Below are positions 18,482 through 23,066 of a stretch of 40,839 bases of DNA, piece by piece. Where the stretch lies: the NCBI GenBank assembly GCA_030147525.1, contig JASBVF010000008.1, forward strand, positions 90,357 to 131,195, in the 5' to 3' direction. The first letter of the stretch is position 1. Every line of letters starts with the position of its first letter. The notes below the pieces were generated by a model that worked only from the letters and a program-made list of their open reading frames with translations, had not been told where the DNA came from and did no database searches. The stretch comes from Bacteroidota bacterium (GTDB lineage Bacteria > Bacteroidota > Bacteroidia > Chitinophagales > Saprospiraceae). Position numbers and translations under genes: made by a program.

Positions 18482-18562
18482 GGGTTGAGGAGGGTTGATA
18501 ATGTTGATAAGGGTTGATGAGACTGATCAACTTTTTCATCTCTCCTCAACCCTTATCAACCT
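18482..18562. repeat. Word-repeat foldback between usp and ntpK (convergent)
   Basis: Repeated words of the type GGGTTGATAA run over 18482-18520 and reappear inverted in 18541-18562. The best arms are GTTGATAAGGGTTGA (18503-18517) and its exact reverse complement at 18546-18560. It fills the 95-bp spacer between two convergent stops and could end transcripts from both sides. Confidence 0.78.
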
Positions 18563-18569
18563 TCGCCAA

Positions 18570-19025
18570 TTACAGCCCGGCGCTGATGATGAACGTCGCA
18601 GCAAACGCCACAATCGCATACAACTCGGGAAATACCGCCAACACCATCGTCCGGCCGAAAACATCGTAACCGGCGCCAATGCCCGCAATGCCGTTGGCAC
18701 AAATCTTACCCTGCTGGATCGCTGAAATCAGACAAACCAGCCCGAGCGCAAAGCCCGCTGCCATAATAGCCATGCCTTGCAACACCGTCATGCCCTGTGC
18801 AATGACGCCGCCGCTGTTGATGATAAAAAATCCGGCAAAGCCGTAGAGGCCCTGCGTACCCGGCAAGGCGCTGAGGAGCATGTAGCTGCCGAATGCCGCA
18901 TCATTTTTCTTCAATGCTCCGATGGTGGCGTTCCCGCCAATCGATACCCCGATGGCGCTACCCACTCCTGAAAGACCCACCATGAGGCCCAGTCCGATGT
19001 AAGCGAGAATTACTGCTGTATCCAT
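18570..19025 (-). CDS. ntpK: V-type ATPase subunit K (membrane rotor proteolipid)
   Basis: A 151-residue proteolipid with four membrane helices (two fused hairpins), forming the rotor ring of the V-type ATPase. The ion-carrying glutamate is E134 in VFPELYAI; the matching place in the first hairpin is Q58 in [10 protein letters not shown], so one carboxylate per subunit, as in eukaryotic and enterococcal V-type rings. L54, T57, Q58, Q105 and E134 match in motif and spacing the Na+ ligands L61, T64, Q65, Q110 and E139 of E. hirae NtpK as I recall them, suggesting Na+ coupling. Last gene of the operon. Confidence 0.95.
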
Positions 19026-19032
19026 GTTTTAA

Positions 19033-19124
19033 TATTGTTTTATTGTTGGATTGCTTGATTGTTAGATTGTTGGATTGCTGGCCTTGTCGCAACAACAATC
19101 AAACAATCCAGCAATCCAGCAATT
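19033..19124. repeat. Octamer foldback between ntpK and ntpI
   Basis: Octamers of the form ATTGNTNG run in tandem from about 19033. Arms 19041-19072 and 19093-19124 are 32 bp each and complementary at 28 positions, with a 20-nt loop. It occupies almost the whole spacer between the ntpI stop and the ntpK start, in the middle of an operon. Confidence 0.82.
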
Positions 19125-19127
19125 ATT

Positions 19128-21001: not shown

Positions 21002-21595
21002 AGATTCTCTCTGCTGTTGCCGGTTTTTCAGGATTTTCTGCGCTGATTTGGCCAGGTTCTCTTCATCTTCCATGAAGCGTTTTATTTTCAAAATGGCCTC
21101 CTCGTACGCCGGTATCTGATTTTTTTCATACAGGTTCACTTTTTGGGTAGTCTTCTTCCGGGCCCGTTCGAGCAGCATCATTTTGCGGATGGCGAACTGC
21201 CGTTCGATGCCGATGCTGGCCAGTTTTTTTAAAATTTCAATCCCGTCGTTGAACCAGTGCGGCCGGTTGAACAGGCTGAATTCTTTCACCTCAAACTCCA
21301 CCCCGGCCAGCGACGGCGTCGGTACCCCTGCGATTTTTTTCGCCCCCATTTTCACTTCGCAAACCTCCACCAGCGATGGGTCAAACTCCGCCCACAGCCT
21401 CGCCATGTTGTCGTACTGCCGGATGAAGTGCTGTAACTCCTCTTCCAGCCGGTGCGACTCCTGCCGTGCTTTTTTGACCTCCGTGCGCAGGGCCGCCTCC
21501 TTGTTTTTCAACACCGGCAACGCCTTCTGGCGGGTCTTCAGCTGCTTGTTCAGATCCTGCAGCGAGGTTTTGTTGTATTGAAATTTGATGGCCAT
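20993..21595 (-). CDS. ntpD: V-type ATPase subunit D (central rotor shaft)
   Basis: A 200-residue central-shaft subunit, largely two long helices that form a coiled coil: N-terminal FQYNKTSLQDLNKQLKTRQK and C-terminal residues about 140-200 (LLERARKKTTQKVNLYEKNQ). Length matches bacterial NtpD (about 200-210). It rotates inside the A3B3 head and couples ATP hydrolysis to the K ring. The final codons (V, N, stop) are provided by a word-repeat element, so its C-terminus appears to have been set by that sequence. Both flanks carry near-identical 81-bp hairpins. Confidence 0.95.
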   Translation of the reverse strand: MAIKFQYNKTSLQDLNKQLKTRQKALPVLKNKEAALRTEVKKARQESHRLEEELQHFIRQYDNMARLWAEFDPSLVEVCEVKMGAKKIAGVPTPSLAGVEFEVKEFSLFNRPHWFNDGIEILKKLASIGIERQFAIRKMMLLERARKKTTQKVNLYEKNQIPAYEEAILKIKRFMEDEENLAKSAQKILKNRQQQRESVN

Positions 21596-21598
21596 TGT

Positions 21599-21679
21599 TG
21601 GTAAATTGGTGAATTGGTAAATTGGTGAATTAGGCTGGGAGCTATCCCAATTTACTAATTCACCAATTCACTAATTCAC
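21599..21679. repeat. 81-bp octamer foldback, copy 2 (ntpD/ntpB spacer)
   Basis: Same architecture as the copy at 20921-21001, with three base differences. Two are paired: the inner stem is TGGGA-GCTA-TCCCA (21636-21649), where G-C of copy 1 is replaced by A-T. It begins 3 bp upstream of the ntpD start codon and its right end contains the ntpB stop codon TGA. Confidence 0.88.
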
Positions 21680-22992
21680 TTCCAATACTTCTCCACAAAC
21701 TCCCGCTTCACCGCCACTTCTTCGGGAGCAAAGTTTTTTGCAAACAACTCCCAGGTCGTATCGAGCATGTCGGTGGTGCCGATGTTCACGTCGATGGCCA
21801 GGAGTCTGTCGGAGTATTCTTTTGCAAATTCAAGTGTTCGTTGGTCATATTCTGTCAGGTCGAAACCGTTTTCCAGCTTGGTGCGGGCGTTGGCGGCGTC
21901 GGCGTAGAGACGAACGGCGGCGTTCATCACCTGCGGGTGGTCGGCCCGGGTTTTCTTTCCGATCACTAGCTGCTTCAAGCGGGAAAGACTCCTGAAGGGG
22001 TCGACGACAACCTTGCCGATCTCCGTATCCCGGCGCAGGAAGAGTTGCCCTTCGGTGATATAGCCAGTGTTGTCGGGGATGGCGTGCGTGATGTCGCCGC
22101 CGGACAGCGTGGTCACGGCGATGATCGTGATGGAGCCGCCTTCCTCGAACTGCACCGCCTTTTCGTACAGCTTCGCCAGGTCGGAATAGAGCGAACCGGG
22201 CATACTGTCCTTCGACGGAATCTGGTCCATGCGGTTGGACACGATACTCAGGGCATCGGCGTAGAGCGTCATGTCCGTAAGCAGCACGAGCACTTTTTCG
22301 TTTTTGTCCACGGCAAAATACTCGGCGGCCGTCAATGCCATGTCGGGCACGAGCAGACGCTCCACGGGCGGGTCTTCCGTCGTGTTCACGAAGCTGATGA
22401 TGCGATGCAAAGCCCCGGCATTTTCAAAAATATCTTTAAAAAACAGGTAGTCGTCGTTGCTTAGCCCCATACCGCCGAGGATGATTTTGTCAGCTTCGGC
22501 ACGCAGGGCCACCATCGCCATCACCTGGTTGAACGGCTGGTCGGGGTCGGCGAAGAACGGGATTTTCTGCCCGGTCACCAGCGTGTTGTTCAGGTCGATG
22601 CCGGCGATGCCGGTGGCGATGAGTTCAGAAGGCTGCTTGCGCCGCACGGGGTTCACCGAAGGGCCACCGATTTCACGTTCCTCGCCTTCTACCTGCGGAC
22701 CGCCGTCAATGGGTTCGCCGTAGGCGTTGAAAAAACGGCCGGCCAGTTCGTCGCCTACTTTGAGCGTGGGCGGTTTTCCTGAAAAAATGACCTCAGCGTT
22801 CGTGCGGATACCTTCCGTTCCGGAAAAGATCTGCAAGGTGACGTTATCGCCTACGATCTTCACGACCTGCGCCGGGCGGCCGTCCACGAGGGCCAGTTCT
22901 TCGTAACCTACGCCGGTGGCTTTCACCGTGCAGGTGGCCTTGGTGATCTGGCCGATTTTGGTATAAATGCGTTGCAGTGCTTTCGTTTCCAT
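21676..22992 (-). CDS. ntpB: V-type ATPase subunit B (non-catalytic head)
   Basis: A 438-residue non-catalytic head subunit from the ATG at 22992 (METKALQRIYTKIGQITKAT); an ATG at 23052 would read through the upstream repeat and is rejected. The N-terminal beta barrel is followed by the nucleotide-fold domain without a Walker A lysine: the P-loop place reads GQKIPFFADPDQPFNQ instead of the usual IPIFSGSGLPHN-like form. RLLVPDMALTAAEYFAVD and VLVLLTDMTLYADALSIVSN are strong B-subunit landmarks. It forms the alternating A3B3 hexamer with subunit A. The stop codon lies in a word-repeat element. Confidence 0.96.
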   Translation of the reverse strand: METKALQRIYTKIGQITKATCTVKATGVGYEELALVDGRPAQVVKIVGDNVTLQIFSGTEGIRTNAEVIFSGKPPTLKVGDELAGRFFNAYGEPIDGGPQVEGEEREIGGPSVNPVRRKQPSELIATGIAGIDLNNTLVTGQKIPFFADPDQPFNQVMAMVALRAEADKIILGGMGLSNDDYLFFKDIFENAGALHRIISFVNTTEDPPVERLLVPDMALTAAEYFAVDKNEKVLVLLTDMTLYADALSIVSNRMDQIPSKDSMPGSLYSDLAKLYEKAVQFEEGGSITIIAVTTLSGGDITHAIPDNTGYITEGQLFLRRDTEIGKVVVDPFRSLSRLKQLVIGKKTRADHPQVMNAAVRLYADAANARTKLENGFDLTEYDQRTLEFAKEYSDRLLAIDVNIGTTDMLDTTWELFAKNFAPEEVAVKREFVEKYWK

Positions 22993-23000
22993 CTTTTGAT

Positions 23001-23066
23001 AATGATGAATGATGAACGATGACTGATGAACTCGCTGCTGTTCATCATTCATCGTTCATCATTCAT
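23001..23066. repeat. Heptamer foldback between ntpB and ntpA
   Basis: Heptamers built on ATGATGA. Arms 23005-23030 and 23041-23066 are 26 bp, complementary at 25 positions, with a 10-nt loop CTCGCTGCTG. The ntpA stop codon TGA (23063-23065) lies inside the right arm. This is the most perfect hairpin of the class in this window. Confidence 0.88.

Follow-up and report, generated by a model that had tools for sequence, protein, structure and literature searches.

Foldback elements whose arms are built of short degenerate words, 7–10 nt long and repeated in tandem, form a real, genome-wide class in a bacterium of the Saprospiraceae (Bacteroidota; assembly GCA_030147525.1; 7.08 Mb in 59 contigs). 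We tentatively regard them as dispersed intergenic insertions, in which the two sides of a gene-end site would have received their words independently, with the hairpin as a by-product. The window, i.e., the whole stretch of 40,839 nt that was analyzed (G000:C1:90357-131195, where G, C, and L label genomes, contigs, and loci), contains the ntp V-ATPase operon. An initial sequence-only reading had reported that word arms fill five spacers in or bordering this operon, and all five hold them.

A sample of 1235 kb contained 8.5 foldbacks with word arms per 100 kb, and the pieces taken from this genome ranged from 5.2 to 14.7 per 100 kb. These densities are weighted toward the word RGTRAATT, since matches to it guided the choice of contigs C54, C56, and C11 and of 19 additional stretches; of the 29 periodic stems on C56, 26 use other words. 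Stems were scored at ≥16 for the genome counts and at ≥14 in the window, and periodic tracts at ≥13. In 841 kb of the genome, 110 stems and 76 periodic tracts were found at these cut-offs, versus none of either in one order-1 resampled copy, which places the class beyond chance. Periodic arms (P 0.05 on either arm, a rule that yields some false positives and overlooks mixed periods) were present in 105 of the 163 stems in the 1235 kb, with periods of 8 (61 stems), 7 (23), 9 (13), 10 (7), and 6 (1). Among other genomes, sampled over 45–220 kb each, densities per 100 kb were 10.1 in G007, 3.9 in G001, 3.1 in G009, 2.7 in G008, 1.6 in G016, and 1.0 in G004, and no word foldbacks were found in G005, G018, G019, G029, and G031. 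A set of 78 loci (L013-L090), mostly of Bacteroidales, gave 1.0 per 100 kb (11 in 1118 kb), and one 50-kb piece of Escherichia coli K-12 had no stems.

The class and its constant design, words of about 7–8 nt with one or two variable letters, hold as first described. The words are not, however, specific to single sites, as had also been suggested; instead, each is a dispersed family, and word choice differs between genomes. RGTRAATT foldbacks are present at at least 40 loci (40 scored out of 77 first-look candidates), two of them in the window. Such an element consists of about four RGTRAATT words, a center of ~17 nt that starts with RGG and ends with CCY, and about four AATTYACY words; arm length ranges from 2 to 8 words. 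Among 54 RGTRAATT clusters in the fetched sequence, both arms were present in 39, in one order throughout, and a single arm in 15. Within 116 middle words, positions 2, 3, 6, and 8 were at least 99% constant and positions 5 and 7 were 94 and 92% constant, while only positions 1 and 4 were often variable, nearly always between A and G. The 40 scored loci are clustered, with 13 pairs no more than 5 kb apart versus 1.1 expected, which favors copying from nearby arrays. Two rnf operons of this genome (L157:5414-10366 and L121:13411-18188) hold several RGTRAATT foldbacks, and many RGTRAATT matches lie in a second rnf operon of G001 (G001:C144, ~25-47 kb).

The choice of words amounts to a dialect. 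Sixty genomes, this one among them, were searched for three words in a row, counted as overlapping pattern matches rather than as elements: RGTRAATT had 111 matches here, 29 in G001, and none in 53 of the 60 genomes; GGTGAYT had 13 here, 120 in G016, 43 in G001, and 40 in G007 and was present in 12; and ATGAAYG had 33 here, 44 in G016, and 29 in G011 and was present in 11. The word GGTGAYT was found in 5 of 118 genomes sampled from the phylum, this genome included. Long near-pure direct arrays, of GGTGATT at G016:C1:133770-133895 and of GACAACAC before leuD at L303, indicate that word runs can also lengthen where no second arm is present. Comparable intergenic tandem words of ~7 nt with a patchy distribution are found among long simple sequence repeats and heptamer direct repeats, such as the TAACTGA arrays of Beggiatoaceae, which extend to some Bacteroidetes and for which no mechanism is known (PMC4679880). 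In those arrays a single word is repeated directly, mostly close to start codons (169 sets, with one indirect repeat; PMC4679880), whereas the elements described here draw on many words that meet head to head at gene 3′ ends. In titles and abstracts, whose coverage is thin for subscription journals, no description of such elements was found.

In both arms, each word run reads G-rich and C-poor toward the center. The 5′ arm of the periodic stems contains 31% G and 7% C, and G exceeds C in 95 of the 105 stems, with 9 reversed and 1 tied; the corresponding counts for non-periodic stems are 33, 18, and 7. When pairing was not required, eight word families showed 64 inward pairings by their G-rich spelling in this genome, a few of which share an arm, and no outward ones. 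Neighboring arrays of the same word in non-overlapping sequence, again irrespective of pairing, faced inward in 54 cases, outward in none, and in the same direction in 5. For neighboring arrays of unlike words, which are unable to pair, the counts were 9, 3, and 5; 22 further pairs with weak skew were dropped. With some overlapping loci included, the counts became 59, 2, and 8 for the same word and 11, 3, and 7 for unlike words. Seemingly clear unlike pairs are found at L163:13526 (GTTTGADGG facing AGTAGGC), L177:4864 (AGTAGGC facing RGTRAATT), and L029:12498 and 12687, and the preference of unlike-word arrays for facing inward is suggestive only. The strand rule is that, on both sides, the 3′ direction of the G-rich strand is toward the center.

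In most of the families tested, the composition of one arm is independent of that of the other. The variable letters of RGTRAATT agree between the two arms of one element in 101 of 190 comparisons (0.53), versus 0.52 between elements, and this agreement is unaffected by one-word shifts. Among seven other families, mostly small, agreement departs from the between-element rate only in AATGAKDG (P 0.017). Inward polarity and independent arms, with some support from the unlike words that face each other, thus suggest that two arrays were laid down separately under the strand rule.

Across nine genomes of the same genus, a census of 39 orthologous junctions, picked because this genome has elements there and read with a lenient cut-off for direct arrays, found word elements in 11 (7 foldbacks and 4 direct arrays), none of them spelled with this genome's word. 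No element was found at the other junctions, 13 with a gap of ≤50 bp and 15 with a longer gap. The census excludes one rnf junction of G009 and leaves uncounted the ntpB-ntpD foldback of G008, whose mixed period the periodic-arm rule misses. In 48 comparisons of neighboring genes (stems ≥16 here, any stem ≥13 in the relative), a stem was present in both genomes in 5, here only in 18, in the relative only in 4, and in neither in 21. The sequence-only reading had named the ntpD-ntpB spacer among those to compare between strains, and foldbacks do stand there in G007 and G008 as well, spelled differently: RGTRAATT here, GGTGATT in G007, and GTCATTRG in G008. Given that GGTGATT is one base off RGTRAATT, a word change in place at this junction is possible. 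Among the same three genomes the ntpD-ntpI junction is filled only here, with a gap of 5 bp in G008 and none in G007. The element at L142:17804-17913 and its counterpart in G007 have one flank in common up to the element and then diverge. The rnf junctions are empty (11–32 bp) in G001 and, for the two that were read, in G009; in G008, G010, G007, and G011, word elements of a different spelling occupy at least one of them. Taken together, the dispersed copies, the junctions that are empty in relatives, and the change of words argue for recurrent insertion.

The sites are gene ends, as placed by simple longest-open reading frame (ORF) calls. In co-directional spacers, the 47 elements start a median of 5 nt past the stop codon and end 16 nt before the next start, and 64 of 91 gene ends lie inside an arm or no more than 10 nt from one. 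At gene ends beside RGTRAATT foldbacks, the stop codon falls within the arm in 24 of 37. With two elements without context left out, divergent spacers are element-poor (11 of 80 elements versus 139 of 590 spacers of ≥60 bp) and convergent spacers are element-rich (22 of 80 versus 89 of 590). We rejected the possibility that the elements are stop-codon cassettes. Stops face inward and the first words often give a stop, yet stops were found in 13 of 27 words listed by hand versus 13.1 after letter permutation, and they were not consistently enriched per word family; the counts therefore lend no support to selection for stop codons within words.

In the explanation that we favor, the chromosome would be opened at a site, through a break or the cleavage of an older palindrome, existing arrays of the genome would serve as donors for words added to both 3′ ends, and the extended ends would then be joined, so that two word runs meet head to head with a short variable center between them. 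Such two-ended extension at an opening would leave inward-facing arrays. The hairpin would result from the presence of one word in both arms rather than being a selected feature, and arms may sometimes copy one another later. We infer an origin by repair-copying or telomere-like addition, with a hypothetical enzyme and donor. Eukaryotic interstitial telomere arrays consist of C-poor words placed head to head, G-rich strands inward, and are made with telomerase; the elements here resemble them in their inward G-rich strands and differ in that those arrays are eukaryotic and telomerase-made. By analogy, bacterial end addition is a long shot: upon opening of the chromosome at a gene junction, both 3′ ends would gain C-poor degenerate word runs in a telomerase-like manner and would then join, leaving head-to-head scars.

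Several observations weigh against independent insertion on both sides. Perfect mirrors over ≥24 bp make up 8 of the 105 periodic stems (18 if perfect at any length), in a set that was found by pairing and so leans toward mirror arms. RGTRAATT centers show a loose consensus (RGG..CCY), and identity of at least 0.7 was reached in 33 of 645 distant pairs versus 0 of 800 shuffled ones; overall, distant centers have 44% identity versus 36% when shuffled. Within the window, the two RGTRAATT elements are set apart by only a few bases, which, together with the shared center consensus, indicates that whole elements are also copied. An RGTRAATT foldback stands upstream of rnfC in the congener G001, as it does here, at a junction outside the 39. 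The word CGCAGATT supplies 7 of the 9 stems with reversed skew, its order being constant yet not G-rich. The unlike-word pairs are few, their inward excess of 9 over 3 has a P of 0.15, and some of them are weak or lie within called ORFs.

The nearest rival, which we consider rather unlikely, is that the elements are non-autonomous foldback transposons in which the words serve as iterated binding sites for a trans-acting transposase. Inverted ends holding tandem subrepeats proposed to bind transposase are described for the Foldback/Galileo transposons of Drosophila (PMC3688188), and the elements here likewise have inverted ends made of such subrepeats. Dispersed copies with a single polarity, sharply conserved letters next to two A/G positions, lineage-specific filling of junctions, and the center consensus and near-identical neighbors of RGTRAATT are likewise consistent with transposition. 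However, some 20 words would each require a protein, and arm length is not fixed. Nor do RGTRAATT elements show the target-site duplication of a miniature inverted-repeat transposable element (MITE), since flanking 5-mers are shared in 3 of 30 elements versus 3.8 after re-pairing and 4-mers in 15 of 30 versus 12.1 (P 0.15). The transposase of Galileo is known and its ends are long (PMC3688188), whereas the elements here are ~80 bp with independent arms. Another bacterial parallel is the BrickBuilt MITE of Porphyromonas gingivalis, also of the Bacteroidota, which is intergenic and combines tandem repeats with inverted ends; its 23-nt minisatellite unit is repeated directly between small inverted ends and not in facing arms (PMC4596501).

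The sequence-only reading had offered replication slippage, which would build a word run, followed by a strand switch, which would make its inverted copy. Strand switching does occur in a minority of elements, as the perfect mirror arms of some stems indicate, and at L157:9989 a non-word stretch is mirrored in both arms; the long direct arrays, such as GGTGATT in G016, are consistent with slippage. As a general origin the combination is nevertheless improbable. Slippage predicts identical neighbors, while identical adjacent words numbered 43 of 291, fewer than the 63.4 ± 5.1 obtained by shuffling within arrays. Most of this deficit is carried by RGTRAATT, the largest family (20 of 153 versus 33.8), followed by GTTTGANNN (1 of 31 versus 4.2, P 0.021) and NRGTAGGC (2 of 35 versus 4.9, P 0.058), and the remaining families are neutral or too small. 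It should be noted that 6 of 115 arrays with one word kind, which could reflect slippage, were left out of this test beforehand, and that deletion of pure arrays could be an alternative source of the deficit. A strand switch predicts mirror arms, but in most families the arms agree only at the between-element rate. Moreover, either strand could start a switch, yet the outward order is absent in eight families, and words recur at dozens of sites.

Quite improbable, too, is the other origin first suggested, that the elements are intercistronic RNA hairpins maintained for processing, 3′-end protection, or stoichiometry. The folds are strong (z-scores of −4.5 to −10.3 for the five operon spacers and 13090-13195, the 6 of 12 named sites that were folded), the elements fill their spacers, and they are distributed between divergent and convergent spacers as an RNA role would favor. 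Mismatches in the stems, read on the sense strand, nevertheless comprise 23 G.U, 40 A.C, and 23 others, the opposite of the wobble expected of a sense-strand hairpin; the variable letters do not covary between arms; and many orthologous junctions are empty. The TTTT of an intrinsic terminator follows within 12 nt of the arm in only 1 of 91 cases, and extending the stretch back over the final 6 nt of the stem raises this to 13 of 91, versus 13 of 62 other stems. No Rfam family matched within the window at gathering score.

Repetitive extragenic palindromic (REP) elements mobilized by REP-associated tyrosine transposases (RAYT) are likewise dispersed intergenic palindromes in many copies (PMC2817692), and four Y1_Tnp genes are present here, but this origin is highly improbable, given that the GT(A/G)G head and GC-rich palindrome that define REPs (PMC2817692) were not found, GTAG or GTGG standing just outside either end in only 2 of 30 RGTRAATT elements, and that none of the four Y1_Tnp loci (two cut short) has a word stem on both sides. 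Two of these loci have a single word stem, one has none, and one has two palindromes of another kind, GCCGGGTTAT..ACCCGGC. This REP-like palindrome, with its variants (L221:1150 and 1986, L142:16042, and L112:9725), adjoins a Y1_Tnp gene, recurs elsewhere in the genome, and has a look-alike in G007. A second dispersed inverted element that is not word-built, TTGTCATNGCCGCAGGCNACCTGCAACGTCA, is found at L125:4228, L140:12811, L152:17167, and L174:6754, and at L109:6468 in G008. A reverse transcriptase with many templates was also rejected as a source. The gene search, which covered Y1_Tnp and RVT_1, found a single RVT_1 gene, and its locus has no word array or strong stem.

In the window, word stems account for six of the seven stems scoring ≥14. 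The convergent spacer between a usp-like gene and ntpK holds a foldback of the 10-mer word GGTTGATAAG at 18482-18563 (arms 23 nt, 91%), and the ntpI-ntpK spacer holds one of the 8-mer ATTGYTRG (= GATTGYTR) at 19034-19123 (arms 31 nt, 90%). RGTRAATT foldbacks occupy the ntpD-ntpI junction at 20921-21001, where the ntpD stop codon lies inside a word, and the ntpB-ntpD junction at 21598-21680, where the ntpB stop codon lies inside the first word (both with arms 25 nt, 92%). At the ntpA-ntpB junction, an ATGATGA foldback at 23001-23066 (arms 27 nt, 96%) has the ntpA stop codon (23063-23065) inside its first word. The longest ntpB frame (21676-23052) begins inside the foldback, and most homologs align from about residue 21, so that the true start is probably near 22992. 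The further sites named in the sequence-only reading fared unevenly. A GTGTTTGR foldback at 13094-13191 is the top-scoring stem of the window, with arms under the periodicity cut-off, and five sites stood as direct arrays with no stem at the cut-off: ATGATGA at 5141-5171, GTTGTTC at 8542-8572 (within a called ORF), TGCCTACT at 9459-9491, a weak array of CACTCAAC at 27461-27483, and TTGGCTG at 33709-33749. At 2891-2937, TTGGCTG words with a short inverted piece can be seen by eye and fall below the cut-offs used. Separately, about five tandem repeats of 237 bp, mostly within a called ORF, occupy 39628-40839 and reach the window end.

Slippage is the usual explanation for short intergenic words in bacteria, and RNA function is that for the hairpins they form. 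Polarity, arm agreement, neighbor identity, and unlike-word pairs are simple tests that separate these ideas, and they point to two-sided insertion. If end addition were true, a genome's words would correspond to its set of templates or donor arrays, and species dialects, inward polarity, independent arms, and unlike facing pairs would all be accounted for. Operon junctions have been rewritten between sister species, with changes to stop codons and to the C-terminal residues of proteins, and the elements may be traces of an undescribed process that adds DNA where a site has been opened.

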